NCBI RefSeq assembly: GCF_022662195.1
Contig: NZ_JAKMCS010000007.1
Location: forward strand, 62,001-126,000
Source of the DNA: Aestuariivivens insulae
GTDB taxonomy: Bacteria > Bacteroidota > Bacteroidia > Flavobacteriales > Flavobacteriaceae
Direction: 5' to 3'
DNA length: 64,000 nt
Part shown: one piece after another, positions 5,491-55,835 of the stretch
Layout: each line of letters starts with the position of its first letter
Numbering within the stretch: the first letter of the stretch is position 1
Position numbers and translations under genes: made by a program
Notes under the pieces: model-generated
Database searches by the model: none
What the model was told of the DNA's origin: nothing
Seen by the model: the letters and a program-made list of their open reading frames with translations, nothing else

Positions 5491-5537
5491 TTCAGGACAG
5501 TGCAGGATAAAGTAAATGCATTTTTGGTTTAGCTTTA
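5491..5537 (+). promoter_or_regulatory. Tandem TGCAGGA operator with -7 box (copy a)
   Basis: Half-sites TTCAGGACAG (5491-5500) and TGCAGGATAA (5501-5510), then 19 bp, then the -7-like box TAGCTTTA (5530-5537). This is one of nine copies with the same architecture; see the first finding. It precedes the sulfatase-rhamnosidase gene at 5621. The distance to that start, 110 bp, is longer than the 51-65 bp seen for the other copies. Confidence 0.75.
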
Positions 5538-5620
5538 TAAATTATTATAATCTTTAGCTTATTTTTATGTCAAGAGCTAAAATTATTTGAAAAAAATCTT
5601 TAACAGTAAATTAAAGTTTA

Positions 5621-8600
5621 ATGTCTAAAATCAAAGTTTTATTCGGACTAATTTTATCAATTGGAAGTTTAAACATTATTCTTGCTCAAGAAAAGCCTGA
5701 CAGTCAGAACGAGTCGAAGCCTAATATCATATTTATTCTAACCGATGATCAACGCTTCGATGCTATTGGATATGCAGGAAACCAGTTTGTTGAAACGCCA
5801 GAAATGGATAATTTGGCCAATTCAGGGACATATTTTAATAAAGCTATTGTCACTACGCCAATATGTGCGGCAAGTAGAGCAAGTATATGGACGGGGCTTC
5901 ACGAAAGAGCGCATAATTTTAATTTTCAAACAGGAAATGTTCGGGAAGAATATATGGCAAACTCTTATCCGACACTATTAAAAAACAATGGCTATTATAC
6001 AGGTTTTTATGGTAAATATGGGGTGCGATATAATGATTTAGATAAGCAGTTCGATGAATATGAATCTTATGATAGAAATAATCGATTTAAAGATAGAAGA
6101 GGATATTATTACAAGACAATAGATAATGATACCGTTCATTTAACTAGATATACAGGGCAACAGGCTTTAGATTTTATCGATAAAAATGCATCAAACAACA
6201 AACCTTTTTGTTTGTCGCTTAGCTTTAGTGCTCCCCATGCCCATGATGGAGCGCCGGAACAATATTTCTGGCAAGAAACAACCAACGGTCTTTTACAAGA
6301 TGAAACCATTCCTGATCCTGAATTAGGAGATGACAAGTACTTCTTGGCACAACCAAAAATTGTACGAGAAGGGTTTAACAGGTTACGTTGGACCTGGCGT
6401 TATGATACGCCAGAAAAGTATCAGCATAGTTTAAAAGGTTATTACAGAATGATTTCAGGGATTGATTTAGAGATAAAAAAGATTCGTGAAAAGTTAAAGG
6501 AAAAGGAGATAGACAATAATACGGTTATCATTTTAATGGGCGATAATGGTTACTTCTTAGGAGAAAGGCAGTTGGCTGGTAAATGGTTAATGTATGATAA
6601 TTCCATTCGTGTCCCTTTAATTGTTTTTGACCCTAGAGAGAACAGGCACCAAGATGTAGATGATATGGTACTGAACATTGATGTTACCTCTACTATTGCA
6701 GATTTGGCAGGTATAAAAGCCCCAGGTTCTTGGCAAGGCAAAAGTTTAATGCCCATAGTTAGGCAAGAAACAAATACAATTGATCGGGATACCATTCTTA
6801 TTGAACACATTTGGGATTTTAGTGAAATTCCACCGAGTGAAGGGGTTCGAACCAAAAAATGGAAATACTTTAGGTATGTGAACGATAAGACTATTGAAGA
6901 ACTTTACGATTTGGAAAAAGACCCTCAAGAGGTTAAAAACTTAATTGGGAAGAAAAAATATAAAATAGTGGCCGATGAGTTAAGGGCCAAGCTGGATGAA
7001 CTTATCAAGAAAAACAGTGACCAGTACAGGGCGGCCCCAACAGATTTGACGGTGGAGTTGATTAGGGAACCAGCTAATGAGGTTAAAATATTCGATTTAA
7101 AACCTGAGTTTGGATGGAGCGTACCCTTAGCATCTAAATTTCAATCGGCCTACCAAATTCTTTTGTCCTCAAGTAAAGCAAATATCGATGCTAATAATGG
7201 TGATGTTTGGGATAGTGGGCAAGTGCGCTCAACAATATCAACAAATGTAGAATATCAAGGAAAGAATCTTGAAATAGGCCAAGCCTATTATTGGAAGGTA
7301 AGAATATGGGATGAGGAAAACAGACTAGTAGATTACTCTGTAGCCCAAAAATTCACAACGGGTAAAAGCGATGGTTATATCATCTCAACGGAGAATAAAT
7401 ATAGTATTGAAAAGATAAACCCTATAAAATTTGAAAAGCGAGGCGATCATTATTTTATGGATTTTGGAAAGGCTGCTTTTGCAACGGTTAATTTTAACTA
7501 TAAGGCTAAAACGCCCCATACGATAACGGTAAGAATTGGCGAAATGTTAGACGATAAAGGGAATGTCAACACAAGACCTCCTGCAAAGAGTAATATCCGG
7601 TACCAAGAAATCAAGGTTGATGTAGGGCCGGGACAAACACAGTATCAAATTAACATTACGCCAGATAAGCGAAATACCTTGCCTTATAAAGCCATTGCAT
7701 TGCCCGAAGGGTTTCCTGTGCTAATGCCATTTAGGTATGCAGAAATTGAAGGAGCGAAAGTCACCATAAATGCTGAAGATGTAGTGCAACTGGCACATTT
7801 TAGTTATTGGGATGAGCAAGCGAGTCATTTTGAGAGTAATAATGATATTTTAAACCAAGTATGGGATTTATGCAAATATTCCATTAAAGCTACAACTTTT
7901 AATGGCTTATATGTAGATGGGGAACGTGAGCGTATTCCGTATGAAGCTGATGCCTATTTAAATCAATTAAGTCATTACAATACCGATAGAGAATATGCCA
8001 TGGCTAGACGTACCATAGAATATTTTATGGAGCACCCAACATGGCCTACCGAATGGCAACAGCATGTAGCGTTGTTAATATATGCAGATTATATGTACAC
8101 TGGAAATACCGAACTAATTGAGCGGTATTATGAACCTTTGAAGTATAAAACGCTTTACGAATTATCCAATGAAGATGGGTTGATCACTTCTACTAAGGTG
8201 ACCGAAGAATTTATGTATAAACTTGGCTTCAAGCCAGGTTACAATAAGCCGTTAACCGATATTGTAGATTGGCCCAATGCCAATTTTATGAAAAGTGGAA
8301 ATAAAGGTGAGCGTGACGGGTTTGAATTTAAACCTTACAGTACAGTTATCAACGCTTTCTTTTATGAGAACATGAAAATCATGGCGGAATTTGCTAAGAT
8401 TTTAGGGAAAACACAAGAGGTCTTGGACTTTCAGTTAAGAGCAGCAAAAGCCAAAAAGGCTGTGAACGAACAAATGTTTGATAAAGAACGCGGTATTTAT
8501 GTGGATGGTATTGGTACAGACCATGCATCGCTCCATGCCAATATGATGCCATTGGCCTTTGGTTTAGTGCCGGAGGAGTATTTTAATTCGGTTGTGGATT

Positions 8601-9157
8601 TTGTGAAATCTCGTGGGATGGCTTGCAGCGTTTATGGAGCGCAGTTCTTGATGGACGGGTTATATAATGCAGGGGAAGCAGACTATGCATTAGAGTTATT
8701 GGCCAGTACAGCAAAGAGAAGTTGGTATAATATGATTAGGGCAGGCTCAACAATAACCTTAGAGGCGTGGGATTACGATTATAAGGTGAATTTAGATTGG
8801 AATCATGCTTGGGGCGCTGTTCCTGCTAACGCAATACCACGAGGATTATGGGGCATAAAGCCTAAAACACCAGGTTTTGGTATAGCCACTATAAAACCGC
8901 AGATGAGCAAACTTAAATCTAGTGAAATTACTGTGCCCACTGTTAGAGGTGCTATAAAAGGAAAGTACACTTATAATGGTGATAGATTACAAACATATGA
9001 AATTGAAATACCTGGTAATATGGTAGGTGAGTTTTTATTGAACGATGTAAACGGAAAAGATTTAATACACAATGGTGAAAAAGTACCACCGGCATTTGAA
9101 TCTATAAGGTTATCCCCTGGTAAACATATCATACAGCTTAAAATAAATTCGTTTTAG
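5621..9157 (+). CDS. Bifunctional S1 sulfatase / GH78-type alpha-L-rhamnosidase fusion
   Basis: A two-enzyme polypeptide of 1178 residues with a Sec signal peptide (cleavage probably after LAQ, residue 23). Residues about 34-490 form a family S1 arylsulfatase: metal ligands in ILTDDQ (42-43), formylglycine motif CAASR (82-86, Cys type) and [10 protein letters not shown]. After a linker, about 495-590 is the Fn3-like N-terminal domain typical of GH78 rhamnosidases ([15 protein letters not shown]). The GH78 (alpha/alpha)6 catalytic part follows, with [12 protein letters not shown] around 766-777 at the place of the GH78 acidic signature, and a C-terminal beta-domain. The likely job is to remove sulfate from a rhamnose 3-sulfate and then release the rhamnose. 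The Formosa ulvan PUL has a comparable S1-GH78 fusion. It is first gene of a tight three-gene operon (6 bp to the next). Confidence 0.9.
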
Positions 9158-9163
9158 TAATTA

Positions 9164-11014: not shown

Positions 11015-11024
11015 TCTCAAATAT

Positions 11025-13583: not shown

Positions 13584-13629
13584 GTTCTCCAAATATTTCT
13601 AAGGATACATTTGTCATTTTTACTGTTTA

Positions 13630-13954: not shown

Positions 13955-13963
13955 AATAGCACG

Positions 13964-14010
13964 TGCAGTATAGTGCAGGACAGGTTTTGGTAAATCCTAT
14001 TTTATCTTTA
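13964..14010 (+). promoter_or_regulatory. Tandem TGCAGGA operator with -7 box (copy b)
   Basis: Half-sites TGCAGTATAG (13964-13973) and TGCAGGACAG (13974-13983), 19 bp, then TATCTTTA (14003-14010). It lies 55 bp before the ATG at 14039 and drives the six-gene run 14039-25348. Confidence 0.8.
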
Positions 14011-14038
14011 AGCTTTAAATTTCATCTCTGTAAAGTAA

Positions 14039-15007
14039 ATGAATACGGTCAATTGGGGAATTATTGGATGTGGCAATGTGGCCGAAGTTAAAAGTGGCCC
14101 TGCTTTTCAAAAAGTAAAGCACTCTGCTTTAATATGCGTGATGCGCAGAAACGAAGAAAAAGTAAAGGATTTTGCCAAAAGGCATAACGTGCCAAATTAT
14201 ACAACCAGTGTTTCTAAATTGGTTAATGATGAAAGGGTGAACGCTATCTATATTGCAACCCCGCCTTCTTCACATTTACACTATACATTACAGGCCATTC
14301 AAGCAGGTAAAAGTGTGTATTTAGAAAAACCAATGGTGTTACATAGCAAAGAAGCCCATATACTTTTAAAAGCATTGAATAAAAGCAATGTAAAAGTTAC
14401 GGTAGCGCATTATCGTAGAAATTTACCTTTGTTTACTGAAGTGAAATCATTATTAGGTGCTAATGTAATTGGAAAAGTAGCTTCGGCAGAAATTGAAATA
14501 GCGCAATCGCAAAGTGCAAATTTAATAGCCAAAACAGATGAAAATTGGAGGTTAGATCCAGAAATTTCAGGTGGTGGCTATTTTCATGATATAGCACCGC
14601 ATCAAATAGACTTAATGTGTTATTATTTTGGAGATGTAGCCAAAATAAAAATAAATGCTATTCATGATAGTATGTCACCAAGTGATATGGTGAGTGGTGA
14701 AGTGGAATTTGAAAACGGCGTTCAATTTAAAGGAAGTTGGAACTTTGCTGCTTCAGAAGACAGTGACAGATGTACAATTACTGGCGAAAAGGGGACCATT
14801 ACATTTTCTTTTTATAGTGATGAGATTAGGGTTGAAACAACAGAAAAAAGAGAAACTTTTAAGTTTCAAAACCCAAAGCATGTACAGCAACCTATGATAG
14901 AACAGGTTGTGGGGTATTTTTTAGGCGAAAATGAAAATCCATGCTCGGTAGAAGAGGCCGCAGTGGTAACTGAAATTATGGATGCATTTTGTGGAATTGA
15001 TTACTAG
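14039..15007 (+). CDS. Gfo/Idh/MocA-family oxidoreductase
   Basis: NAD(P)-dependent sugar oxidoreductase of 322 residues without a signal peptide, so cytoplasmic. The N-terminal Rossmann fold shows WGIIGCGNVAE (residues 6-16). IYIATPPSSH and YLEKPMVLH follow, the latter containing the EKP motif with its catalytic-type lysine, and GGGYFHDIAPHQIDLM near 178 carries the active-site histidine region. It is the first gene after operator copy b and 2 bp ahead of the GH43 gene. In an ulvan locus it may oxidise or epimerise a released monosaccharide; the true substrate is unknown. It differs clearly from the second family member at 61701. Confidence 0.85.
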   Translation: MNTVNWGIIGCGNVAEVKSGPAFQKVKHSALICVMRRNEEKVKDFAKRHNVPNYTTSVSKLVNDERVNAIYIATPPSSHLHYTLQAIQAGKSVYLEKPMVLHSKEAHILLKALNKSNVKVTVAHYRRNLPLFTEVKSLLGANVIGKVASAEIEIAQSQSANLIAKTDENWRLDPEISGGGYFHDIAPHQIDLMCYYFGDVAKIKINAIHDSMSPSDMVSGEVEFENGVQFKGSWNFAASEDSDRCTITGEKGTITFSFYSDEIRVETTEKRETFKFQNPKHVQQPMIEQVVGYFLGENENPCSVEEAAVVTEIMDAFCGIDY

Positions 15008-15009
15008 TT

Positions 15010-18650: not shown

Positions 18651-18657
18651 AAACATC

Positions 18658-25349: not shown

Positions 25350-26225
25350 TTAATATACGGAGTTTCTAAATTGTCCTGGAGCCAAACCGGTTTTTCGTTT
25401 AAATAAACGATTAAAATAATAGGCAGATTCAAAACCAAGTTTATACGCAATTTCTTTTTGGGTCATTTTCGTGTTTAAAAGGAGTTCTTTGGATTTTTCA
25501 ATCTTAAGCAATAAATAGTATTGCAATGGAGATATCCCGGTTTGGATTTTAAAATCCGATCTGAATTTAGAATAACTTACCCCTAAATCTATTGCTATGT
25601 TTAATAAATCTATTGATTGGTCAATGTTCTTATACATCATGCCCTTGGCACGTGACACCATGGAATTAAGGTGTTCAATATGATCTCCAGCGTTTTTTAT
25701 ATTATGCAATTCTGCCATAAGCTGAATGCACACCCCAGATGCTAAACGTTGGAATCCAAAAGGTTCTTCATCAAATAGTTTAAACAGGATATTGAAATGG
25801 TTTAAAATAACTGGTTTGTTGCATTTTGATAGGATTGGGGCGTCAGCAGTGAAGAATCCGTTTGAAAGAAACTGTTTGGCTATATCCCCAGAAAAACCCA
25901 CCCAGCGTTCAGTCCATCCGGTTTTCTGCTTGGGCTTATAACGATGCCAAACACCGGGAAATAATAGAAATAAGTCACCATCCGAAACTTTTATTTTTCC
26001 GGTGGCCTTACTTTCAAAAGAACCTTCACCTTTTGTGATGAGCACCAAATGAAATTCATTCAAAACCCGCCCTTGTTCCCAAGTGAAAATATAGTTGTCA
26101 GGATGGTCCTTTGATGGATAAAGCGTATTTTTTTCAATAATAGTACGTCCTAAACTGTTGATGTAAAAGCCCCATTTTTTATCTTGTTCAAGAACAATAA
26201 GATATTTTCTGTACTTGTTTTTCAT
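25350..26225 (-). CDS. AraC-family transcriptional regulator
   Basis: Cytoplasmic regulator of 291 residues. The N-terminal 150 residues resemble the AraC cupin-type sensor domain (LVLITKGEGSFESKATGKIKV, DLFLLFPGVWHRYKP, TERWVGFSG). The C-terminal 100 residues hold two helix-turn-helix units with the family signature KEIAYKLGFESAYYFNRLFKRKTGLAPGQFR. AraC proteins place their two HTH units in successive major grooves about 10 bp apart, which fits the 10-bp half-site spacing of the repeated operator in this window. No other regulator is visible here, so it is the leading candidate to bind those operators; this is inference, since a hybrid two-component regulator elsewhere would fit too. It is divergent from the GH78-isomerase-RhaT unit and convergent with the gene at 23435. 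Confidence 0.92.
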   Translation of the reverse strand: MKNKYRKYLIVLEQDKKWGFYINSLGRTIIEKNTLYPSKDHPDNYIFTWEQGRVLNEFHLVLITKGEGSFESKATGKIKVSDGDLFLLFPGVWHRYKPKQKTGWTERWVGFSGDIAKQFLSNGFFTADAPILSKCNKPVILNHFNILFKLFDEEPFGFQRLASGVCIQLMAELHNIKNAGDHIEHLNSMVSRAKGMMYKNIDQSIDLLNIAIDLGVSYSKFRSDFKIQTGISPLQYYLLLKIEKSKELLLNTKMTQKEIAYKLGFESAYYFNRLFKRKTGLAPGQFRNSVY

Positions 26226-32475: not shown

Positions 32476-33323
32476 TTATTCCCTAATATGAATTAACATC
32501 TTTAAAGCCACATTCGCTGTTAAATCTCCAGTATCACAGGTGCCATAGGCTCCATATCTGGTATAAATGCGTTCTGTTGTATGGTTGTGAGTAATATATT
32601 TTTCGGTATTGCCAATTTTTACTTTTGAAAAGGTCACACCATTGGTGTTGTACCCAGTTTCATAAACAAAATTGTATTCTTCGTTGTAATTAAGTATTTC
32701 AAAATCTTGTACACCCTAGTGCCCCCAGTATCTGTTGTATATGGGTTCACAGTGACATGGGGTTCTAACTTAATCTTATTGCCGTCTGCTTTTTTAGCAT
32801 AAACTAAAAATTGAGCACTTCTATTCGTGCTGGCTGCTTCTTCACCCTATAAAGTATCTCCTCCGGCATGCGACTGGATGATACATGTATTACCATCACT
32901 TAAATCACGAATTCTTAAGGAGCCTGTAAGTATGGTCTTTTGGTTCACGTCATGTGAAATAGTTCTAAAGAAACGTTCCACTCTGGTTTTGGGACCATTA
33001 TATCTTACTGTACCACCAGTAATATTGTAACTGCCCCAATTTCCAGAGGTATTACTGTAACCACCAACTTTAGGGGCTGTTCTGCAGTTTAAAGTACTTT
33101 TGTTATTAGGGTTGGAAACGTCATCACAGGATTGTGGCGAACCAGGGACTAAATTTGGATAATCAGAGTTGTTATCACAATCTTGATAGGGTGCTGGGTT
33201 TTCTAATGATATGGGGTCGCTATCAATTGTTTTATCCATTTTCGTTTCACTGGAACACGAAAAAATAAGACTTAACATTAAAATGAATGCAGTTATACCA
33301 AACATTCTTAACTTGAATTCCAT
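32476..33323 (-). pseudogene. Broken secreted jelly-roll polysaccharide lyase (PL28/PL7-like)
   Basis: The open part (32847-33323, 158 residues) begins with a lipoprotein signal (IFSCSSE) and continues into RVERFFRTISHD and CIIQSHAGGDTL, then meets a TAG at 32847-32849. Translation past it stays protein-like (GEEAASTNRSAQFLVYAKKA, then TTDTGGT). A one-base frameshift near 32715 leads to a second frame with ILNYNEEYNFVYETGYN, VTFSKVKIGN and RIYTRYGAYGT, ending at 32476. The reconstructed protein would have about 282 residues. The R-E-R, Q-x-H and Y-x-R-x-G-A-Y pattern recalls beta-jelly-roll lyases; PL28 ulvan lyases fit the context, PL7 being the alternative. Two independent lesions make it a pseudogene or the record of sequencing errors. 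Its operator (copy c') is intact. Confidence 0.7.
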
Positions 33324-33360: not shown

Positions 33361-33407
33361 GCAAAGTAGGTTGATTGCCTTTTATGAGTATCCTGCTGTG
33401 CTTACTA
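33361..33407 (-). promoter_or_regulatory. Tandem operator with -7 box before the lyase pseudogene (copy c')
   Basis: On the minus strand: weak half-site TAGTAAGCAC (33407-33398), strong half-site AGCAGGATAC (33397-33388), 19 bp, then a degenerate -7 box TACTTTGC (33368-33361). The start codon at 33323 is 64 bp away. Together with copy c it forms a 9-bp perfect inverted repeat (GTATCCTGC / GCAGGATAC) with a 34-bp spacer. Confidence 0.6.
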
Positions 33408-33419: not shown

Positions 33420-33466
33420 AGCATGAGAGTGCAGGATACAGAACCTTTACAATTAATGTAATTTTC
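33420..33466 (+). promoter_or_regulatory. Tandem TGCAGGA operator with -7 box (copy c)
   Basis: Half-sites AGCATGAGAG (33420-33429) and TGCAGGATAC (33430-33439), 19 bp, then TAATTTTC (33459-33466). The ATG of the GH78 gene at 33498 follows after 58 bp. It serves the GH78-sulfatase-VOC operon. Confidence 0.8.
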
Positions 33467-41327: not shown

Positions 41328-41454
41328 AAAATAACCGTCCTGATCTGTTCTGTTTAAATTCTTCTAGTAAATACTTTCTATATAGTATGTTGCCTTATGG
41401 TGTTGGGCCTCTACCTAGAGGCTAAGTGATATTTACTGGGAATAGTTTAAAGAA

Positions 41455-42384: not shown

Positions 42385-43650
42385 TTAGTTAGCGGAATAA
42401 GTTGAAGGCGCATCCTGTGTTTCTTTACCTTTTCCTAAAGGAGAAAAGATAATTCCTGCCCAGCGGGCACGGGTCCATTCATGCCCATCTGAACCTCCCT
42501 TTGCAATAACTGTGATTTTGTCACCTTTATAAAGCTTAATATTTTCCCAAAGCCCATTAAATTTTTTCCCTTCTTCAAATAGCTTGTCAGTTAATGGTGT
42601 TTGATATGAACCTATTACAATATCATTAACTAATATTGTAAAAGTTGAGTTTCCGTCGTTTTCACCAACACCTACAAACACTACATCGTATTTTCCACTA
42701 TCAAAATCGAATGTTTTACTCGTAATTGCCTTCTTATGCGTTTTGGGATTGATAGCTAACCAATTTTTCCCGTTTTTGTAAAAATTAGTACCGACAGAAG
42801 GGAATTCCTGGGCAGCTATGTGTTTGTTTTCGTCAAAAGCCTTGGAGATAGTAGTGAAATATGATTTTTTATGTTTATGGGCTTCGACTTCAGGAAATGT
42901 ATTAGGTAATTCGCCCTTTGCTAATAATACTCTAGGGCCTTTTTCAATTGGGGTATAGTTAATATCTGTCGTTAAAATAAATTTATCAAATTCAAAACCA
43001 TCCTCCCGCATACTAAACTGGATATCATGTTCGCCAGGTTCTTCTATTTCTAAAAAAATGGCATGAGGTATTCCACAATGTTCTTCTTTGGTCCTTTGTT
43101 TACTGGCCCAAGTCCAATGCCCTCTTCCATCACACCATTGCATACGACGCCCATGTTCTGGCCAATTACCGTTTAAGCCAACATGCAGGCCATTATCCTC
43201 GCTACCAGAACAAAAGGCTCTCGCCCAAACAAAATAGCGCCCTTTGTTAGTAAATTTTACTTTGTAATGAAGCACGGCCATTTTGCCAGCTTCTTCTGTG
43301 AAGTTTTCACCAATTACTAACTTATCGGAGTGTGTCACCCGTTCATCAGGTAATAGTTCGATATACGCATTATTGCTAGCCCCAAAACAATGTTGGTTGT
43401 CATCGTCTCTACCTACTTTGGCCAATTCGTTCTTCGATGTCCGGTACCATTGTCTAATGTTGGAATGACTTTGTTTGTAGAAATACTCGGCTTCCACAGT
43501 CACAAGTCCGTTTTTTTCCTCAAATACAGTTCCTGATTTCACTATGGGTTGATGTAAATCAGTGCTTTGGGCAACACTAATTTGGTCACTAAAGCTGAAT
43601 AATAGTGTTAGTAAAAAAACAACTTTAATTTTAAAAATAGGGCTGTTCAT
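42385..43650 (-). CDS. Secreted protein with tandem carbohydrate-binding-like beta-sandwiches (GH115 C-terminal-like)
   Basis: Secreted protein of 421 residues, signal peptide ending SVAQ. The first half opens with NGLVTVEAEYFYKQ and continues YVWARAFCSGSEDN-like FVWARAF and HDIQFSMREDGFEFDKFIL, the pattern of the beta-sandwich at the C-terminus of GH115 and of CBM6/35-type modules. The second half (about 265-421) looks like another small beta-sandwich (NWLAINPKTHKKA, KYDVVFVGVGENDGNST). No catalytic domain is apparent. It may bind glycan at the surface or in the medium. It is transcribed first in the minus-strand unit, 66 bp before the nucleoside-hydrolase-like gene, 51 bp after operator copy d'. 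Confidence 0.6.
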   Translation of the reverse strand: MNSPIFKIKVVFLLTLLFSFSDQISVAQSTDLHQPIVKSGTVFEEKNGLVTVEAEYFYKQSHSNIRQWYRTSKNELAKVGRDDDNQHCFGASNNAYIELLPDERVTHSDKLVIGENFTEEAGKMAVLHYKVKFTNKGRYFVWARAFCSGSEDNGLHVGLNGNWPEHGRRMQWCDGRGHWTWASKQRTKEEHCGIPHAIFLEIEEPGEHDIQFSMREDGFEFDKFILTTDINYTPIEKGPRVLLAKGELPNTFPEVEAHKHKKSYFTTISKAFDENKHIAAQEFPSVGTNFYKNGKNWLAINPKTHKKAITSKTFDFDSGKYDVVFVGVGENDGNSTFTILVNDIVIGSYQTPLTDKLFEEGKKFNGLWENIKLYKGDKITVIAKGGSDGHEWTRARWAGIIFSPLGKGKETQDAPSTYSAN

Positions 43651-43674: not shown

Positions 43675-43721
43675 TAAATATATGATAAGAAGCGAAATAT
43701 ATTAACCTGCTGTGTCCTGCT
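43675..43721 (-). promoter_or_regulatory. Tandem TGCAGGA-type operator with -7 box (copy d', minus strand)
   Basis: Read on the minus strand: AGCAGGACAC (43721-43712), AGCAGGTTAA (43711-43702), 19 bp, then TATATTTA (43682-43675). The start codon at 43650 is 51 bp away. It ties the two unknown minus-strand genes to the rest of the locus. Confidence 0.75.
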
Positions 43722-43775: not shown

Positions 43776-43821
43776 ATCATGATAGTACAGGATTAAATTT
43801 TTCAATTAAGCTTTAATTTTG
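43776..43821 (+). promoter_or_regulatory. Tandem TGCAGGA-type operator with -7 box (copy d)
   Basis: Half-sites ATCATGATAG (43776-43785) and TACAGGATTA (43786-43795), 18 bp, then a perfect -7 box TAATTTTG (43814-43821). The sulfatase ATG is 58 bp from the motif. Copies d and d' are divergent in one intergenic region. Confidence 0.75.
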
Positions 43822-43853: not shown

Positions 43854-45632
43854 ATGAAACCATCAAATTACTTTTTTTGCATAGTAAAAATAAAGTGCTT
43901 ACTTGGTTTGGCTATATTTTTAGCTTTGTTTTTGCAGGGGTGTCAGTCCAATAAAAGCATAGCTAATCAACATGATGGTCATTTTCAAAACGAGACGGAT
44001 TTAGAACGGCCAAATATACTATGGTTAGTAACAGAGGATATGGGGGCTTATATTCCTCCTTTTGGAGACCCTACCATCGAAACCCCTAACTTAAGTCGGT
44101 TGGCCAATGAAGGGGTGGTGTATCCCCATTTGTATTCAACATCTGGTGTCTGTGCTCCTAGTAGGGCTGCTATCGCCACAGGAATGTATCCCTCCGGTAT
44201 AGGGGCTAACCATATGCGAACCAATTCATATATGGATAAAACAGGTTTGCCAGCATATGAAGCAGTTCCACCTCCCGAAGTGAAAATGATAAGTGAGTTG
44301 CTGAGAAGCAATGGGTATTACTGTACCAATAATTATAAAACAGACTATCAGTTCAAAGCGCCAGTAACCGCTTGGGATGACAACAGTCCGTATGCACATT
44401 GGCGAAACCGTAAAGGAGACCAGCCATTCTTTTCTGTATTTAATTTTACTGAAACACATGAATCCGGTTTGTTTGAGCCATATGGACACCGTTACATAGA
44501 AACAAGATACCACCATTTAGGCGATACAACTTTTGTTTGGAAGCGAGATAGGATGAGTGAGGAAGAAACACCTAAGCATGTGTCGAAAGATATTAAGTTT
44601 AAGGTGCCGCCTTATCTTCCCGATAATAATGTGGTGCAGCGTGACATGTGGAAGCTTTATAATAATATAGCTGAAATGGATAGACAGGTGGGACAAGTTT
44701 TAAAACAATTGGAAGACGATGGTTTACTTGAGAATACCATTATCTTCTTTTATGGAGACCATGGGGGGCCGTTACCTAGAGAAAAACGTCTTATATACGA
44801 CTCTGGATTAAATACACCATTGATTATCAGGTTTCCGAGTGGTGTCAATGCAGGAACAAAAGATAACCGGTTAATAAGCTTCGTTGATTTTGCGCCCACT
44901 TTATTGTCGTTTATTAATGTGCAACCACCTAAATACCTTCAAGGACAAGCATTTTTAGGTAAGTATAAAGTGAAGAACAAGCGAAAATATATCCATGCTG
45001 CGGCAGATCGTTTTGATGCTGAAACCGATGCAATAAGGGCTGTAAGAAGTGAACGGTTTAAATATATAAGGAATTATAGGCCAGAAAAGGGGTACTATTT
45101 GCCTATACAATATAGAGAGCGTATTCCTACTATGCAAGAACTATTAAGGTTAAGGGAAGAAGGGAGTTTAGATAGTATTCAAGAACAGTGGTTTAGGGAC
45201 GGAAAGCCAAAAGACGAATTATTTGATTGTATCAATGATCCATATGAATTAAATAATCTTGCAGAAAATTCAGAGTATGATTATATGCTCAATGAATTGA
45301 AGTTTGAAATGGATCGATGGTTAGTAAGTATTGGAGACCAGCCAAATTTACCTGAGAAAAAGCTAATCAATCAATTATGGAAAGGAAAGGGGGCGCAACC
45401 GCATACAGAAACGCCCAAAATTCAATTTGATGATACTTCACAAATTGCCCTTAGTGTAAAAACTGAAGGAGCCTCAATTGGGTTTAAACTAATACATGAA
45501 GACGGGGAAATTCCTAAATCGTGGACAATTTATAAAGAGCCTTTAACTAATTTAAAAAAGGGTGATACGCTATTGGTACAGGCCCACCGTTTAGGATTCA
45601 AGCCCAGTAAAGTTATTAATAAAGTATTTTAG
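43854..45632 (+). CDS. Family S1 sulfatase lipoprotein
   Basis: Sulfatase of 592 residues with a lipobox LFLQGC (Cys 30), so anchored in a membrane. Motifs: metal site LVTEDMGAYIPPFG where Glu-Asp replaces the usual Asp-Asp, formylglycine motif CAPSR at 100-104, the active-site stretch GIGANHMRT, and FFYGDHGGPLPREKR. The C-terminal 90 residues form an extra beta-domain (IALSVKTEGASIGFKL). The GxGANHMRT stretch is, from memory, typical of an S1 subgroup seen in ulvan loci. It differs strongly from the sulfatases at 5621 and 36343, so it probably handles another sulfate position or chain-length class. A terminator follows, making it monocistronic. Confidence 0.92.
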   Translation: MKPSNYFFCIVKIKCLLGLAIFLALFLQGCQSNKSIANQHDGHFQNETDLERPNILWLVTEDMGAYIPPFGDPTIETPNLSRLANEGVVYPHLYSTSGVCAPSRAAIATGMYPSGIGANHMRTNSYMDKTGLPAYEAVPPPEVKMISELLRSNGYYCTNNYKTDYQFKAPVTAWDDNSPYAHWRNRKGDQPFFSVFNFTETHESGLFEPYGHRYIETRYHHLGDTTFVWKRDRMSEEETPKHVSKDIKFKVPPYLPDNNVVQRDMWKLYNNIAEMDRQVGQVLKQLEDDGLLENTIIFFYGDHGGPLPREKRLIYDSGLNTPLIIRFPSGVNAGTKDNRLISFVDFAPTLLSFINVQPPKYLQGQAFLGKYKVKNKRKYIHAAADRFDAETDAIRAVRSERFKYIRNYRPEKGYYLPIQYRERIPTMQELLRLREEGSLDSIQEQWFRDGKPKDELFDCINDPYELNNLAENSEYDYMLNELKFEMDRWLVSIGDQPNLPEKKLINQLWKGKGAQPHTETPKIQFDDTSQIALSVKTEGASIGFKLIHEDGEIPKSWTIYKEPLTNLKKGDTLLVQAHRLGFKPSKVINKVF

Positions 45633-45653: not shown

Positions 45654-45682
45654 AGGCTACATTTAGAAGTAGCTTTTTTTTT
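45654..45682 (+). terminator. Rho-independent terminator after the sulfatase gene
   Basis: Stem GCTAC / GTAGC with an 8-base loop, followed by nine T (45674-45682), 22 bp after the stop codon. Confidence 0.85.
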
Positions 45683-45775
45683 GTGTGTTTTTCTATAAAG
45701 AAAAATAAAAACAATATAAAGATTTAATGGTAATTTGTAAATCTTTACCTTCAACTTTATGAATTTAACACTTAT

Positions 45776-45822
45776 AGCATGTTAGAGCAGGATGGACTAT
45801 CATTATTTAACAAATAATTTAG
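45776..45822 (+). promoter_or_regulatory. Tandem TGCAGGA-type operator with -7 box (copy e)
   Basis: Half-sites AGCATGTTAG (45776-45785) and AGCAGGATGG (45786-45795), 19 bp, then TAATTTAG (45815-45822). It is 56 bp before the ATG of the second SusC gene. The first half-site is almost the same as in copy c. Confidence 0.8.
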
Positions 45823-45851
45823 AGGCCTATTAACAAATTAACTTAAAATTT

Positions 45852-48800
45852 ATGAAACTAAAAACTACATCAAATGAGACATTTAATTTGAGAAGAATTA
45901 AGTTGTTTTCCATTTTGTTTTTTTCATTCATGGCAATGTCTTTTGCCCAAACAGTGAAAGGAACGGTAACAGCAGATGGACAACCCCTACCTGGGGCAAC
46001 TATTTTGGTTAAGGGAACGACTACGGGGACAAGCACCGATTTTGATGGGAATTTTACGGTCAATGCGGAAGCTTCAAGCACACTTGTATTTTCCTATGTT
46101 GGTTATGCTACAAAGGAAGTGGTTGTTGGAGATCAAACAGAGATTAATGTAGTGCTGGAGGCTGATAATAAACTAGACGAAGTCGTTGTTATTGGTTATG
46201 GTACGCAACGTAAGTCTGATTTAACAGGGTCTGTGTCTTCGGTAAGCGCCGAAGATATTAATGCAACACCTGTATCCAGGGTGGATCAAGCCTTACAAGG
46301 TAGAGCAGCGGGTGTGCAGGTAACACAAGTAAGTGGTGCGCCTGGTGCAGGAACCGTTATAAGGGTAAGAGGAGGAAACTCTATTACAGGAAGTAATGAA
46401 CCACTTTGGGTTATTGATGGTATTGTAGTAGGGACAAACTTTAACCTGAATAACATTAATAGTAATGACATCAAATCTATTGAGATCTTAAAAGATGCTT
46501 CTTCAATCGCCATTTATGGGTCTAGAGGGGCAAATGGGGTTGTATTGGTGACTACCAAGAATGGAAAAGCTGTGGGGACTGGGAAACCGCAAGTGAGTGT
46601 AAACCTTTATACCAGTTCACAGATGGTTCCAGAATTACCTCATATGCTTACCCAGGAGGAACAGATAGCCTTTACCAATGAGAGTGCTCGCTTTAGAAAC
46701 ACTGCAGAACCATTCCCAAATGATCCTTCAACCTACCCTGATAATGATTGGTATGATTTAATTATGAATACAGCGCCTATTTATAGTGCAGATGTGTCCA
46801 TTTCTGGAGCAACAGACAATCTGAACTATTATAATTCCTTAAGCTATTTTAATCAAGAAGGTATTGTAAAGAGTTCAGGTATTGAAAAGTTTATTTTTAG
46901 ATCCAATTTAGACTATACCTTAAGTGAAAAATTAAAAGCTGGATTTAGGATAAATTATTCAAGAATTAATCAAGATAATGGTGTTGTAGGCTTTGGTAAC
47001 GCTTTTGGAACCCTAAGAACCCAGCCTATATATAATGATGATGGATCCTATAATGGGTTTAATGATGTTGTTGGAGCGCCTTTTGATAACCCTTTAGCGG
47101 CTATAGAGTTAAACACTAATGAAACGTTTACCAATAACTTATTGGCTACAGCTTATGTAGAGTATAGCCCTGCTGAAAACTGGATAATCCGTTCTACATT
47201 TAGTCCAGAATTTAACAATGTGAAACAAAATAGATTTATCTCGAGTCAAATGCCAGGTTTTCTTGCCATAAATGTAGGCGATGGGGGAGAAGCTAGTATA
47301 AGAACAGTAGCCAGTACAGGATGGAACAATGAGAACACCATTCAGTATACCTCAAATTTTAGTGAAGACCATAGCTTGGTTGCACTTGCAGGAGCTTCAT
47401 TTCAGAAAGTATCAACAGAAATAGAAATGGCAGAAGCCTTTGGTATTACAAGTGATGCAGCTGGGTTTAATAATTTAGGTTTTTCAGATCCAGCAAGATC
47501 AGTTGTAAGTAGTGATTTTACAGGATTTCAAATAGCGTCCTTTTTTGGAAGGTTAAACTATACCTATAAAGACAAATACCTTTTAACTTTAGTGGGAAGA
47601 ACAGATGGTAGTTCCCGCTTTGCACCAGGTAATAAGTATGAGTTCTATCCTTCTATAGCAGGAGCTTGGAAAATAACGGAAGAACCGTTTATGCAAAATC
47701 AAAGCACTTTTCAAGACTTAAAGTTAAGAGCCAGTTGGGGTAGGTCTGGAAATCAAGCTATTGGAGCGTATAGAACACTAGGGCTTTTAACAGAAGCAAA
47801 CACTACCTTAGGCGGTAGTGAGTTGCCAGGTTTAACTATTGGTAGACCGGCAAACCCCAATTTAAAATGGGAAACAACAAGTTCTTACGATATCGCATTG
47901 GAGGCTTCTCTTTTTGGAGGCAAGTTGTTTACAGAGTTAAATTATTACTACAAGAAAACCGAAGACTTATTATTGGACGTAACTATCCCTAGACAAACTG
48001 GGTTTACAAGTCAATTACAAAACATCGGATCGTTAGAGAATCAAGGTTGGGAGTTGATGGTTAATTCCACGAACATTAGTAATTCGAACTTTAGCTGGAA
48101 TTCGACGGTAACTTTGTCGTCTAATAATAACAAGATATTAGACTTAGGAGACGTAGATTTTATAGATGTTACGGTAGATGAAATATTAGGATCTGGTAAC
48201 ACTCGTTTAATTGTAGGGCAACCAGTACCTGTGTTTACAGGTGCTAGATATTTGGGGACATGGAAAAGTCAGGCAGAAATTGATGCATCTGGAATTACAA
48301 GTCCTACTGTGGTTGGTGGAGCTAGGTATGAAGATGTTAATGGAGATGGCATAATTTCATCGGAAGACTATGTGATATTGGGAGACCCCACACCGGATTT
48401 AATATTTGGTATTGAGAACACGTTTTCTTATAAAAATTGGGATTTATCATTCTATTTTCAAGGTACTACAGGTAATGAAGTGTTTAACTTAACAATGCGT
48501 AATAATTATTTTAACCGTGGAGAAACCACTAAATATGGAGATATAGCGGACCGATGGACACCGGATAACCCAGACTCAGATATTCCAAGGGCAGGGCAGG
48601 ATTCTGTGACAAATACACCGCCAAACTCTGAGTATGTTGAAGATGGGTCGCATATTCGTCTTAAGACTTTAAGATTAGCATATAATGTGCCGGTTAACGA
48701 CTGGGGGTTAAAAGGGGTATCAGATGCCACAATCTATTTCTCAGGAAATAATTTATTATTGTTCTCAGATTTTAGATTAATCGATCCCGAAGCCAGTAGA

Positions 48801-48899
48801 TTTGGAAGAACCGGTTTAGGAAATATTGCCCAAGGTTATCATAATGGGTCTTACCCTAATCCTCGAGTTATAACCCTTGGCTTAAACGTAACATTTTAA
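45852..48899 (+). CDS. SusC-like TonB-dependent outer-membrane receptor (complete)
   Basis: Complete receptor of 1015 residues. Signal peptide ends SFAQ (about residue 32). Then come the carboxypeptidase-like domain (VKGTVTADGQPLPGATILVKGT...DFDGNFTV), the TonB-box-like LDEVVVIGYGTQ, the plug (VDQALQGRAAGVQVTQVSG, IRVRGGNSI, LWVIDGIV, ILKDASSIAIYGSRGANGV) and a 22-strand-type beta-barrel ending in LGLNVTF. It forms the import channel with the SusD encoded 18 bp downstream. Compared with the first SusC it is closer to the family consensus (VVIGYGTQRKSDLTGSV). The nearby sulfatase, GH3 and lyase genes suggest that it imports sulfated rhamnose oligosaccharides. Confidence 0.96.
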   Translation: MKLKTTSNETFNLRRIKLFSILFFSFMAMSFAQTVKGTVTADGQPLPGATILVKGTTTGTSTDFDGNFTVNAEASSTLVFSYVGYATKEVVVGDQTEINVVLEADNKLDEVVVIGYGTQRKSDLTGSVSSVSAEDINATPVSRVDQALQGRAAGVQVTQVSGAPGAGTVIRVRGGNSITGSNEPLWVIDGIVVGTNFNLNNINSNDIKSIEILKDASSIAIYGSRGANGVVLVTTKNGKAVGTGKPQVSVNLYTSSQMVPELPHMLTQEEQIAFTNESARFRNTAEPFPNDPSTYPDNDWYDLIMNTAPIYSADVSISGATDNLNYYNSLSYFNQEGIVKSSGIEKFIFRSNLDYTLSEKLKAGFRINYSRINQDNGVVGFGNAFGTLRTQPIYNDDGSYNGFNDVVGAPFDNPLAAIELNTNETFTNNLLATAYVEYSPAENWIIRSTFSPEFNNVKQNRFISSQMPGFLAINVGDGGEASIRTVASTGWNNENTIQYTSNFSEDHSLVALAGASFQKVSTEIEMAEAFGITSDAAGFNNLGFSDPARSVVSSDFTGFQIASFFGRLNYTYKDKYLLTLVGRTDGSSRFAPGNKYEFYPSIAGAWKITEEPFMQNQSTFQDLKLRASWGRSGNQAIGAYRTLGLLTEANTTLGGSELPGLTIGRPANPNLKWETTSSYDIALEASLFGGKLFTELNYYYKKTEDLLLDVTIPRQTGFTSQLQNIGSLENQGWELMVNSTNISNSNFSWNSTVTLSSNNNKILDLGDVDFIDVTVDEILGSGNTRLIVGQPVPVFTGARYLGTWKSQAEIDASGITSPTVVGGARYEDVNGDGIISSEDYVILGDPTPDLIFGIENTFSYKNWDLSFYFQGTTGNEVFNLTMRNNYFNRGETTKYGDIADRWTPDNPDSDIPRAGQDSVTNTPPNSEYVEDGSHIRLKTLRLAYNVPVNDWGLKGVSDATIYFSGNNLLLFSDFRLIDPEASRFGRTGLGNIAQGYHNGSYPNPRVITLGLNVTF

Positions 48900-48917
48900 A
48901 AAAAATAAAGAATAGAT

Positions 48918-50507: not shown

Positions 50508-50544
50508 TAACAAGTAATTTGATTTTTTGAATTGTTTAGTTTGT

Positions 50545-50577
50545 AAAGACCGGAGTACATGATCCTTCGGTCTTTTT
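50545..50577 (+). terminator. Rho-independent terminator after the second SusCD pair
   Basis: Stem AAAGACCG / CGGTCTTT with a 15-base loop, ending in a T-run, 38 bp after the stop of SusD. Confidence 0.85.
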
Positions 50578-50609
50578 GATTAAATAAAATACTTTATATA
50601 TCTAAACTC

Positions 50610-50656
50610 TACGGCACAGTGCAGGACGCATAACCCAGTAGCCCTTGTTATTTTTA
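50610..50656 (+). promoter_or_regulatory. Tandem TGCAGGA operator with -7 box (copy f)
   Basis: Half-sites TACGGCACAG (50610-50619) and TGCAGGACGC (50620-50629), 19 bp, then TATTTTTA (50649-50656). The start codon of the GH3 gene is 62 bp away. Confidence 0.78.
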
Positions 50657-50691
50657 ATCTATAATTCAACTTTTACTATTTAACAGTTTTG

Positions 50692-52881
50692 ATGATCCTA
50701 AAATTTATGAAGAAAATACTCTCTATCAGTCTTATTGCAATTACTTTAATTGCTTGTAAAACAGAACAGACTAATCCGGATTTAAAAAATCAAGAAGATT
50801 TAGAGATTGCTCAGAAAGTTGAGGCATTGGTAAGTCAGATGAACCTAGATGAAAAAATAGCTGAAATGACACAAGATGCGCCAGCTAATGAGCGATTGGG
50901 TATTCCTGTTATGAAATACGGAGAAGCATTACATGGATTATGGCTAGTTCTTGATTATTATGGTAACACAACAGTTTATCCGCAAGCGGTAGCCTGTGCT
51001 TCTACTTGGGAACCTGACCTAATTAAAAAAATGGCATCTCAAACAGCCATAGAGGCACGGGTATTAGGTGTGACACATTGTTACTCACCTAATTTAGATG
51101 TCTATGCAGGAGATGCCCGCTATGGTCGTGTTGAAGAATCCTATGGTGAAGATCCTTATTTGGTTTCGCGAATGGGTGTTGCATTTATTGAAGGTTTACA
51201 AGGTACGGGAGATGAGCAATTTGATGAAAATCATGTTATAGCAACCGCCAAACATTTTGTGGGATACCCAGAAAACCGCCGTGGTATAAATGGTGGATTC
51301 AGCGATATGTCCGAACGTCGTTTGCGTGAAGTTTACCTTCCACCGTTTGAGGCTGCAGTACAGGAAGCAGGAGTAGGCTGTGTTATGCCGGGGCATCAAG
51401 ACTTTAATGGTGTACCTTGTCATATGAACACCTGGTTGTTAAAGGATATCTTAAGAGATGAGCTCGATTTTGATGGTTTTATTGTTTCTGATAATAATGA
51501 TGTAGGGAGAATAGAAACTATGCATTTTATTTCTGAAACCAGAACTGAAGCGGCTATATTAGGTTTAAAAGCGGGTGTTGACATGGACTTGGTAATTGGA
51601 AAAAACGTTGACCTGGCAACTTATCATGCTAATGTTTTGAAGGATACAGTAATGCAGGATCCTTCATTGATGAAATATATAGACAAAGCCGTATCACGTA
51701 ATTTAACCGCAAAATATAAATTAGGGTTATTTGATATTGAACCAAAAGAAATTGATACGGAAACTGTAGAAGCTGGCACTGAAGAACATCGAGAGTTTGC
51801 ATTGGAAATTGCAGAAAAATCTATTATCATGTTAAAAAATGATAATAATCTCTTACCTCTGGATGTATCAAAAATAAAATCATTAGCTGTTATTGGTCCT
51901 AATGCCCACGAAGAAAGACCAAAGAAGGGAACCTATGAACTATTGGGTGGATATTCAGGGTTGCCACCATATTATGTTTCAGTTTTAGATGGATTAAAGA
52001 AAAAAGTAGGTGGAAATGTTAAAATAAACTACGCTAAAGGTTGTGATATTGATAGTTTTTCAAAAGACGGATTTTCCGAGGCTATTGCTGCTGCTAAAAA
52101 GTCAGATGCTGTTGTTTTAGTTGTGGGTAGCTCTCACAGAACCTGCGGTGAAGGCGGCGATCGTTCTGATCTTGATTTGTATGGTGTCCAAAAAGAATTG
52201 GTAGAGGCTATTCATAAAACAGGAAAGCCTGTTATTGTGGTGTTAATTAATGGTCGCCCATTGAGTATAAACTACATTGCTGAAAATATACCGTCTGTAC
52301 TTGAAACGTGGTATGGCGGCATGAGAGCTGGTGATGCTGTTGCCAATGTACTTTTTGGTGATGTAAACCCTGGAGGGAAACTAACCATGTCTTTTCCACG
52401 ATCCGTAGGGCAGGTACCTGTTACTTATTTGGAACGTCCAGACTTTATTGGATCTGGAAAAGGAAAGTATCGATTTAGTGATAAATCACCATTATTTCCA
52501 TTTGGATATGGATTAAGTTACACCTCTTTTGAAATATCTGAGCCAAAGCTTCAAAGTGATAGTATTAGTACAGACAGTAGCACAACCGTTTCAGTTGAGG
52601 TTACTAATACTGGTGATAGGGAAGGTGATGAAGTTATTCAAATGTATGTGCGTGATGATTATGCTTCGGTTGGGAGATATTTAAAGCTATTGAAAGGCTT
52701 TGAGCGTATTTCCCTAAAGCCAGGTGAAACCAAAACGGTTAGCTTTGATTTAGGTTTTGATGAATTGAATGTTTTGAACCAAGAAATGACCAAGGTAGTT
52801 GAACCTGGAACATTTACCATTTCTGTGGGAACATCCTCCTTAGAGAAAGATTTACAGAAAGTTTCTCTATTGGTGGAGTAG
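50692..52881 (+). CDS. GH3 glycoside hydrolase lipoprotein (second)
   Basis: Lipoprotein of about 729 residues. Two ATG codons are possible (50692 and 50707, the latter giving MKKILSIS); both leave an intact signal and lipobox LIACK. GH3 order: TIM barrel with GRVEESYGEDPYL, AKHFVGYPENRRG and the nucleophile Asp 267 in IVSDNND, then the (alpha/beta)6 domain with the acid/base loop CGEGGDRSDLDLYG, and a C-terminal Fn3-like domain (VSVEVTNTGDREGDEVIQMYV). The full GExxDR loop makes it a more conventional beta-glucosidase/beta-xylosidase than the GH3 at 16389. The C-terminal domain is nearly duplicated in a remnant at 55134-55433. The next gene starts 78 bp on without a terminator. Confidence 0.92.
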   Translation: MILKFMKKILSISLIAITLIACKTEQTNPDLKNQEDLEIAQKVEALVSQMNLDEKIAEMTQDAPANERLGIPVMKYGEALHGLWLVLDYYGNTTVYPQAVACASTWEPDLIKKMASQTAIEARVLGVTHCYSPNLDVYAGDARYGRVEESYGEDPYLVSRMGVAFIEGLQGTGDEQFDENHVIATAKHFVGYPENRRGINGGFSDMSERRLREVYLPPFEAAVQEAGVGCVMPGHQDFNGVPCHMNTWLLKDILRDELDFDGFIVSDNNDVGRIETMHFISETRTEAAILGLKAGVDMDLVIGKNVDLATYHANVLKDTVMQDPSLMKYIDKAVSRNLTAKYKLGLFDIEPKEIDTETVEAGTEEHREFALEIAEKSIIMLKNDNNLLPLDVSKIKSLAVIGPNAHEERPKKGTYELLGGYSGLPPYYVSVLDGLKKKVGGNVKINYAKGCDIDSFSKDGFSEAIAAAKKSDAVVLVVGSSHRTCGEGGDRSDLDLYGVQKELVEAIHKTGKPVIVVLINGRPLSINYIAENIPSVLETWYGGMRAGDAVANVLFGDVNPGGKLTMSFPRSVGQVPVTYLERPDFIGSGKGKYRFSDKSPLFPFGYGLSYTSFEISEPKLQSDSISTDSSTTVSVEVTNTGDREGDEVIQMYVRDDYASVGRYLKLLKGFERISLKPGETKTVSFDLGFDELNVLNQEMTKVVEPGTFTISVGTSSLEKDLQKVSLLVE

Positions 52882-52959
52882 TACTTTAAATTGTTTTCTG
52901 TTAACGTAAAATGTTTTTATGCTTCTTTATTGTTATTGACTAAATAAAAATTTATTTCA

Positions 52960-54864: not shown

Positions 54865-54953
54865 TAGCATTATAGCACTTCTTGGCGCAATTTTGCTTTT
54901 TCGCCTCTTGATTTGGCCTTTTGCTTAACGAAGTAAGATTGAAATTTTCACGA

Positions 54954-55139
54954 CTACAGTGAGTCCCGAATGGCACTAACATTTAGGATGTAATTTGTTA
55001 AAGGTTTAATTTCATTTTTGAATTCGGGATTCATAATCGGATTAGCCCACTCATTGGGATCGGCTTAATGGTCATATAATTTGTCGGTTCCATCTTGATG
55101 ACAGATGTAGCTGAATTCTCCGGCCATGGCAGTATAATC
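54954..55139 (-). pseudogene. Sulfatase C-terminal remnant
   Basis: No intact gene, but the minus strand reads GEFSYICHQDGTDKLYDH, a stop, then ADPNEWANPIMNPEFKNEI, ending at a TAG (54956-54954). This is the typical C-terminal pattern of S1 sulfatases (xYI-xx-DGT-xx-LYDH-xx-DPNEW-xN). About 60 codons remain, with one internal stop; protein-like sequence may continue to about 54880 in the same frame. It abuts a GH3 remnant on the opposite strand at about 55134, pointing to a deletion or rearrangement. Confidence 0.65.
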
Positions 55140-55433
55140 CTTTCTGTTACGGTAACCAATACAGGAGAACGGACGGGAGATGAAGTTATTCAAATGTATG
55201 TGCTTGATGATTATGCAACGGTTGGAAGATATTTAAAAATGTTAAAAGGTTTCGAGCGTATCGCGCTCAAGTCGGGAGAAACTAAAACGGTGTCCTTTAA
55301 ACTTGGATTCGATGAGCTTAATATTTTAAATCAGGATATGGAAAATGTAGTTGAACGGGGTAAATTTACAATTTCAGTAGGCGCTTCTTCTTTAGAAAAA
55401 GATTTGCAAAAAGTAAGACTTAAAGTAAAATAA
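55134..55433 (+). pseudogene. GH3 C-terminal (Fn3-like domain) remnant
   Basis: The frame open from 55095 to 55433 encodes only the last domain of a GH3 enzyme from about 55134 on: VTVTNTGERTGDEVIQMYV, GRYLKMLKGFERIALKSGE and SVGASSLEKDLQKV. These line up with the C-terminus of the GH3 encoded at 50692-52881 at most positions. The first dozen residues are just the antisense of the sulfatase remnant. A free Fn3-like domain with no signal peptide would not be exported, so this is a broken paralogue. Its stop codon overlaps a possible early start of the mutarotase gene. Confidence 0.8.
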
Positions 55434-55453
55434 TGGTAAAAACATTAATTGTT

Positions 55454-55768
55454 ATGAAAAGACTGGCATTTAAAATGAAATTACATGAAGGGCAAATGAA
55501 TGCCTATAAAAGTCGCCACGACCAATTGTGGCCAGAATTAAAAAAATTACTTAAAGATAGTGGCGTAAGTGAGTATTCTATTTTTCTTGATGAGGAAACC
55601 AATACACTATTTGCCTTTCAAAAGGTAGTAGGAGATGGTGGCTCTCAAGATTTAGCCGATAATCCTATTGTTAAAAAATGGTGGGATTTTATGGCAGACA
55701 TTATGGAAGTAAATCCAGATAATTCACCTGTTTCTATACCTTTAGAAGAGGTGTTTTATATGGAATAA
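55454..55768 (+). CDS. rhaM: L-rhamnose mutarotase
   Basis: Interconverts alpha and beta anomers of L-rhamnose in the cytoplasm, supplying the form used by the isomerase. The protein of 104 residues starts MKRLAFKMKLHEGQMNAYKS, with the catalytic-type His in LHEG, and continues RHDQLWPELKKLLKDSGVSEYSIFLD and WWDFMADIMEVNPDN, all family landmarks. An in-frame ATG at 55433 would add seven residues and overlap the previous stop; the start at 55454 gives the usual family length. It lies directly after the GH3 remnant without an operator of its own, so it is probably read from the upstream GH3 promoter. Together with RhaT it supports rhamnose as a main product of this locus. Confidence 0.92.
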   Translation: MKRLAFKMKLHEGQMNAYKSRHDQLWPELKKLLKDSGVSEYSIFLDEETNTLFAFQKVVGDGGSQDLADNPIVKKWWDFMADIMEVNPDNSPVSIPLEEVFYME

Positions 55769-55788
55769 CCAATATTTAGGGTTAAACC

Positions 55789-55835
55789 AACAGTACAGTA
55801 CAGGATACGAGCATGGACTAAAGTATTTAATTTCA
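55789..55835 (+). promoter_or_regulatory. Tandem TGCAGGA-type operator with -7 box (copy g)
   Basis: Half-sites AACAGTACAG (55789-55798) and TACAGGATAC (55799-55808), 19 bp, then TAATTTCA (55828-55835). The lyase ATG at 55874 is 65 bp downstream of the motif. Confidence 0.75.

Follow-up and report, generated by a model that had tools for sequence, protein, structure and literature searches.

A tandem-repeat promoter element at polysaccharide and rhamnose genes of Aestuariivivens insulae and its likely GntR-family regulator

The element in the window and its regulon

To our knowledge, few regulators and operators are known for marine flavobacterial polysaccharide loci. The stretch of Aestuariivivens insulae DNA analyzed here (the window; 64,000 nucleotides, C31:62001-126000, in a genome of 4.23 Mb) contains a 20-bp element that an initial annotation had reported before nine genes, as two 10-bp half-sites followed at 18-19 bp by a -7-like box, and had read as the operator of a locus-wide regulon with the local AraC protein as first candidate regulator. 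Copies were scored with a 20-mer matrix built from 16 sites, eight window copies among them, and a -7 box was called where at least 4/6 letters of TAnnTTTG were present. The window features are as follows, with scores in bits and box distances counted from the end of the 20-mer.

5491..5510, plus strand: operator before the GH78/sulfatase gene 5621-9157; box 5530-5537; score 26.6, box 5/6 at 19 bp
13964..13983, plus strand: operator before the oxidoreductase (GFO_IDH_MocA) gene 14039-15007; box 14003-14010; score 24.2, box 5/6 at 19 bp
33420..33439, plus strand: operator before the GH78 gene 33498-36350; box 33459-33466; score 23.4, box 5/6 at 19 bp
33388..33407, minus strand: half operator, second half-site only (AGCAGGATAC), before the small gene 32847-33323; box-like sequence 33361-33368; score 4.6, no first half; box 4/6 at 19 and 18 bp
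43702..43721, minus strand: operator before gene 42385-43650; box 43675-43682; score 22.2, box 5/6 at 19 bp
43776..43795, plus strand: operator before the sulfatase gene 43854-45632; box 43814-43821; score 20.9, box 6/6 at 18 bp, the spacing exception
45776..45795, plus strand: operator before the SusC-like (TonB plug) gene 45852-48899; box 45815-45822; score 21.0, box 5/6 at 19 bp
50610..50629, plus strand: operator before the GH3 gene 50689-52881 (scanned from 50707); box 50649-50656; score 21.6, box 5/6 at 19 bp
55789..55808, plus strand: operator before the BNR_4/secreted gene 55874-58066; box 55828-55835; score 26.5, box 4/6 at 19 bp, tied with 18
41335..41354, minus strand: orphan operator-like 20-mer; score 18.4; no box (2/6 at 19); next minus-strand open reading frame (ORF) about 8 kb off
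25350..26225, minus strand: AraC-family regulator with AraC domains, judged not to be the regulator of the element

Eight of the nine reported copies scored 20.9-26.6 bits on their own matrix, training sites included, and leave-one-out scores of the 16 matrix sites ranged from 16.4 to 25.2. The copy at 33388 was rejected as a full ninth copy, being half a site with a score of 4.6. Nine 20-mers in the window reached a score of at least 17, namely the eight other copies and the orphan at 41335-41354, which may be a remnant; 60 first-order Markov shuffles of the window gave a mean of 0.08 such 20-mers and a maximum of 1. When a box at 19 bp was required as well, seven were found in the real window and none in all 60 shuffles. 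The 20-bp element is real. Its distance to the box is fixed, as had been annotated, and is essentially 19 bp: the box starts 19 bp past the 20-mer in 8/9 copies and 18 bp past it at 43776 alone. At 55789 and 33388 an offset of 18 ties with 19 (4/6 letters each), and the TA begins at 19. The annotated distance of 51-65 bp from 20-mer to start codon was borne out in 8/9 copies, with 110 bp at 5491.

A strict pattern from the window sites occurs six times in the whole genome, always on C31 and in two cases beyond the window; its reverse does not occur. With the matrix, 184 kb of C31 yielded 16 strong sites, including the following eight outside the window.

C31:57119: operator before the GntR/periplasmic-binding protein (PBP) paralogue
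C31:58345: operator before an SDR gene, then uxuA
C31:61659: operator before a large gene with TonB-receptor domains that extends into the window
C31:130641: operator before a GH78 gene; box 3/6 at 19
C31:137900: operator before a GH2 gene; three consecutive 10-bp repeats
C31:158829, minus strand: operator before FBPase
C31:158989: operator before the rhamnose operon
C31:166559: operator before a 470-aa gene whose only match, below cut-off, is to NCS1 symporters

Among these 16 sites, 14 have a box of at least 5/6 letters (13 at 19 and one at 18); C31:117800, which is window position 55789, has 4/6 and C31:130641 has 3/6. A model of the 16 sites gave 17 matches in the own genome at E<=0.05, the 16 and one on C27; the 16 are the training sites of the model, and the window-derived strict pattern is the fairer test. 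The additional match, C27:142220, was rejected as a regulon member: no plus-strand ORF of at least 100 aa lies in the next 2.3 kb, so it is probably a chance match. The regulon spans at least C31:57119 to C31:166559 and includes the rhamnose catabolic operon. The shared operator and regulon of the initial annotation thus stand; its locus-wide extent was too narrow, both on C31 and in view of dozens of other genomes.

Of the rhamnose operon genes, rhaDA scores above the NCBIfam cut-off for a bifunctional rhamnulose-1-phosphate aldolase/dehydrogenase; those for the isomerase and kinase have sub-cut-off matches to rhamnose models. PL28 ulvan lyases are matched at 26.0, just under the cut-off of 27, by the gene that follows the half-site at 33388. 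By their domains, the window targets (GH78, sulfatases, SusC-like, GH3 and the sub-cut-off PL28 match) probably suit ulvan or a similar polymer.

Anatomy of the element and its position in rhaDA promoters

The anatomy of the element was read from 100 sites in other genomes, chosen by a 20-mer score of at least 20 alone. Their consensus is wACAGtACAGtACAGGATAG-N19-TAnTTTtG. Column similarity reaches 0.62 at a lag of 5 and 0.65 at a lag of 10 and does not exceed 0.30 at any other lag from 1 to 11, which indicates a repeat unit of 5 bp and four units per site. The annotated 10-bp repeat is therefore present, with each half made of two 5-bp repeats, and the looser first half often ending in AG reflects this finer repeat. 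The element is a direct repeat, with no palindromic operator found among these sites, and no second copy about 21 bp upstream is conserved among 18 sites. Provided that the assignment to a GntR protein made below is correct, a direct-repeat operator is as found with GntR proteins of the NanR/MocR type. Three 10-bp repeats instead of two were observed at C31:137879-137908, L066:4725-4754 and L072:9992-10021; such arrays would let one more protomer bind.

TAnnTTTG was present with at least 5/6 letters at offset 19 in 90/100 of these sites and at 18 or 20 in 0/100, a count that is partly selected, since many loci were fetched around model matches. Between operator and box the information content is at most 0.19 bit per position, so there is no conserved -33 TTG, in agreement with the earlier proposal that the element stands in place of the -33 box. 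Combining own and other genomes, 116/117 sites lie outside ORFs of at least 150 aa.

The rhaDA promoters are free of that selection; they were fetched by gene, independent of the motif, and a site was called at a 20-mer score of at least 14. The set covers 58 genomes with the GntR regulator, the own genome included as a training site; G005, where rhaDA lies at a contig edge, and G281, which has no rhaDA, contributed no promoter. The element was found in 57/58 of these promoters, with a box of at least 5/6 letters at exactly 19 bp in 57/57, which together with the -33/-35 position and single orientation gives the layout of a class II-type site. Among 11 rhaDA promoters from genomes without a close regulator, the score was reached in G075 alone and seven have no site, two of these seven (G048, G257) with a diverged homologue nearby that has valine at residue 58 (see below). 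Altered sites with a box at 19 precede rhaDA in G119, G232 and G031. At locus L092, in genome G138, rhaDA is only 66% identical and has no operator; that genome has 12 element matches and the regulator.

A GntR-type regulator that accompanies the element

Approximately 30 kb past the right end of the window, adjoining the rhamnose operon, lies a gene for a 348-aa protein (C31:156546-157592) that we call RhaR-G. It matches PF00392 (43.3 bits, cut-off 27) and PF13377 (31.8 bits, cut-off 26.5), which together indicate an N-terminal GntR winged helix and a C-terminal LacI/PBP-type sensor, and no NCBIfam model at cut-off. Its predicted structure (mean confidence, pLDDT, 89.3) has LacI-family proteins as best PDB fold matches, and its DNA-binding domain matches AraR structures (4egy etc.). 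Neither a FadR-like sensor, the type present in NanR, nor an aminotransferase-like sensor was found in RhaR-G, whose sensor is PF13377. A paralogue with the same domains (C31:57206-58228) has an operator before its own gene and another after it, before the SDR and uxuA genes, and is possibly a second sensor in the same regulon.

Co-occurrence was assessed in 299 genomes of the same family, with cut-offs of best E<1e-3 for the element and E<=1e-100 for the regulator, and element matches per genome were taken from among the best 19 or 23 scored candidates. The comparison drew on 110 element entries, 70 rhaDA entries, 63/126 regulator entries (the other 63, at E 7.7e-72 or weaker, lie beyond the 1e-100 cut) and 12/15 AraC entries (the other three are at E 4.4e-66 to 1.3e-51). 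The element was found in 56 genomes and the regulator in 60; 54 have both, two the element only and six the regulator only. Both element-only genomes (G031, G075) have a diverged regulator homologue beside rhaDA (E 8.6e-85 and 1e-79). In G075, a genome of 1.7 Mb, element copies share one locus (L081) with homologues of GntR (41%) and of AraC (33%). At a loose cut of E<=0.05, 110 genomes were matched, comprising all 60 regulator genomes, G031, G075 and 48 with weak matches only. For the 70 family genomes with rhaDA, taking best E<1e-3 or two matches as presence, the element accompanies 58/59 with the regulator versus 2/11 without it (G031, G075). Among the matches listed, six genera (g1, g23, g54, g55, g59 and g84) each pair a member that has regulator and element with one that has no regulator and at most a single weak element match; g60 shows the same split with weak matches only.

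An order-level draw of 246 genomes, partly overlapping the family sample, was assessed with cut-offs of E<=1e-65 for the regulator and E<=0.01 for the element: 29 genomes have the regulator, 35 the element and 26 both, and all 23 genomes with at least two element matches have the regulator. In the three regulator genomes lacking a match, direct reading shows the element upstream of rhaDA and a box 19 bp on. Of 20 neighborhoods from other genomes, nine have within the same 20 kb both the element and a full-length GntR gene (41-77% identity to RhaR-G), and in G060 the sole model match lies between rhaDA and the regulator gene.

Regulator and operator also show some joint variation, at one residue. 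Residue 58 falls in the recognition helix, which spans residues 54-66 in the predicted structure. It is E in 54/58 and V in 4/58 aligned proteins, the four with V being diverged; the paralogue, which has Y, is excluded. Residue 58 aligns with R45 in the AraR recognition helix (PMC4218819). With E58, 47/48 promoters read CAGGAY or CAGGAA, the remaining one, in G138, having no site; with V58, 2/4 genomes read CAGAAC and the other two have no rhaDA site. In G119 a second CAGAAC tandem site, with a box of 4/6 at 19, lies in the gap that separates the regulator gene from the adjacent gene, and G048 has a related site, TACAGAATAG, with a box of 5/6, directly after the regulator gene. A CAGAAC-variant regulon in V58 genomes was rejected because pattern counts were no better than reversed controls, a point that speaks against the proposed pairing (8 versus 5 in the four V58 genomes, 3 versus 7 in six E58 genomes). 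With counts not clearly above controls, the co-variation rests on single promoters and is suggestive of a pairing in which E58 or V58 of the regulator would set the operator base.

Proposed mechanism, alternatives and known systems

Rigid spacing, one orientation, an operator at -33 and no -33 box fit a class II-type activator; a repressor could do without all four. We consider it likely that RhaR-G is a GntR-family regulator responsive to rhamnose, that the element is its operator and that the protein acts as such an activator of polymer and rhamnose genes. From sequence comparison we infer that RhaR-G physically binds the operator, that it activates rather than represses, and, from the gene neighborhood, that its effector is rhamnose or a rhamnose product. 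In the presence of that effector, the tandem repeats, spanning about -49 to -30, would be recognized by two or more RhaR-G winged helices, the operator would occupy the place of the -33 box, and the bound protein would touch RNA polymerase, its distance to the -7 box being held rigidly at 19 bp. Genes by which a sulfated rhamnose polymer, probably ulvan, is taken up and broken down would thereby be co-activated with the rhamnose, uxuA and FBPase genes. For the fuller description, a Bacteroidota GntR/LacI-type class II activator whose four 5-bp units replace the -33 box and tie a marine polysaccharide locus to rhamnose, with E58 or V58 setting an operator base, we see about even chances.

Several observations weigh against this interpretation. 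In the family sample, 48 regulator-less genomes have weak element matches (best E 0.0024-0.049; about 15 would be expected by chance at E<=0.05 in 299 genomes, the E-values being rough), and five of these 48 (G030, G033, G130, G256, G298) have two or three weak matches each. Six regulator genomes fall under the E<1e-3 element cut, of which G004, G132, G165, G229 and G246 have rhaDA sites on direct reading and G281 has no rhaDA. In the order draw, nine genomes without the regulator have one match each (E 0.0009-0.0092). G138 keeps the regulator, yet its diverged rhaDA has no site; the strong site C31:130641 has no box at 19 (3/6), and that of 43776 is at 18. The transcription factors compared by co-occurrence were the GntR regulator and the AraC of the window only. 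The GntR/LacI protein whose site is known, AraR, binds palindromes and represses (PMC4218819).

This last point leads to a rather unlikely alternative, in which the same GntR/LacI-type protein would act as a repressor that blocks polymerase at -33 and leaves upon binding rhamnose or its product. The site does overlap the promoter, and AraR is the best-known relative of the same make-up (PMC4218819); however, repression needs neither the exact 19 bp in 57/57 rhaDA promoters nor a single orientation, and there is no conserved -33 box that polymerase could use. There is a slim chance that another companion of the rhamnose operon binds the element, be it a GntR paralogue (for example C31:57206-58228), a hybrid two-component system or some factor encoded elsewhere. 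Any partner co-inherited with the operon would be compatible with the co-occurrence, and the paralogue has an operator before its own gene and the same domains as RhaR-G, but it has Y at residue 58, and the operator change tracks the recognition helix in two promoters. Moreover, GntR is the only regulator recognized, by similarity to genes of the window region, in 8/9 of the 20-kb loci that hold a full-length GntR gene, L081 adding its AraC homologue, and seven rhaDA promoters without a close regulator carry no element.

The first candidate of the initial annotation, the AraC of the window binding with one helix-turn-helix per 10-bp half-site, now appears very improbable. Its gene lies inside the locus, and the element is present in each of the 12 genomes that have a clear orthologue; at E<=1e-25 the number of matching genomes is 15. 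Yet clear orthologues (E<1e-130) occur in 12/299 genomes versus the element in 56, leaving 44/56 element genomes without one, and the element stands before rhaDA in genomes that have no AraC orthologue; AraC was rejected as the regulator on this co-occurrence. Sites of Bacteroides AraC and hybrid two-component regulators, RhaR motifs included, share with the element direct repeats upstream of polysaccharide or rhamnose genes and differ in a periodicity of about 21 bp, compared with 5 and 10 bp here (PMC3878776, PMC3870299).

Least credible of all is a reading of the element as a dedicated -33 box of an alternative sigma factor, which the -33 position and fixed spacing would suit. Twenty bp of tandem repeats are unlike a sigma box, the distribution of the element follows a DNA-binding regulator, and TAnnTTTG is the ordinary -7 box of Bacteroidota promoters.

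Among known systems, AraR of Bacillus subtilis resembles RhaR-G at the Pfam level in its GntR winged helix and sugar-binding sensor and in controlling a sugar-polymer regulon, and its box half GTACAA resembles the GTACAG unit of the element. AraR represses from palindromic boxes (PMC4218819), in contrast to direct 5-bp repeats in one orientation 19 bp from a -7 box. Escherichia coli NanR is likewise a GntR-type protein on a repeat operator, (GGTATA)3, and differs as a repressor with an operator downstream of the polymerase site (PMC8012715). Its repeat and its sensor are different ones as well. GabR, PdxR and TauR, of the MocR type, are activators within the GntR family; many MocR-type activators use direct repeats, and that of TauR, CTGGACYTAA, is 10 bp long (PMC5320631). 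Their sensor is aminotransferase-like, in place of the LacI/PBP-type sensor of RhaR-G. For activation from direct repeats by members of the GntR family the MocR group is a precedent, and for a repeat operator NanR is one (PMC5320631, PMC8012715). Known L-rhamnose regulators are of the AraC, DeoR and LacI types; they share control of the rhamnose pathway and belong to other protein families, and DeoR-type sites are imperfect direct repeats of 10-11 bp (PMC3870299).

Titles and the beginnings of abstracts among the papers listed, weak evidence in themselves, yielded no description of the operator or of a GntR-type rhamnose regulator in this group, and the words GntR and Flavobacter are absent from the main text of the one rhamnose-regulon survey searched (PMC3870299). 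The proposed system would provide a case of a GntR-type activator working on tandem repeats of half a helical turn; its rhamnose regulator would belong to a family on which that survey is silent (PMC3870299). One operator, a candidate regulator, a regulon and a possible residue-base pairing can be read from sequence in dozens of genera.

Two further observations concern the surroundings. At window positions 55095-55433 a short ORF resembles, by eye, the C-terminal end of the GH3 gene 50689-52881 and is probably a duplication leftover. To the left of the window, C31:2346-9180 holds a gene run of conjugative-transfer type, in which gene 2908-5325 has a TraG P-loop domain and the remaining genes are presumably of the same type; the polysaccharide locus may lie beside a mobile element.

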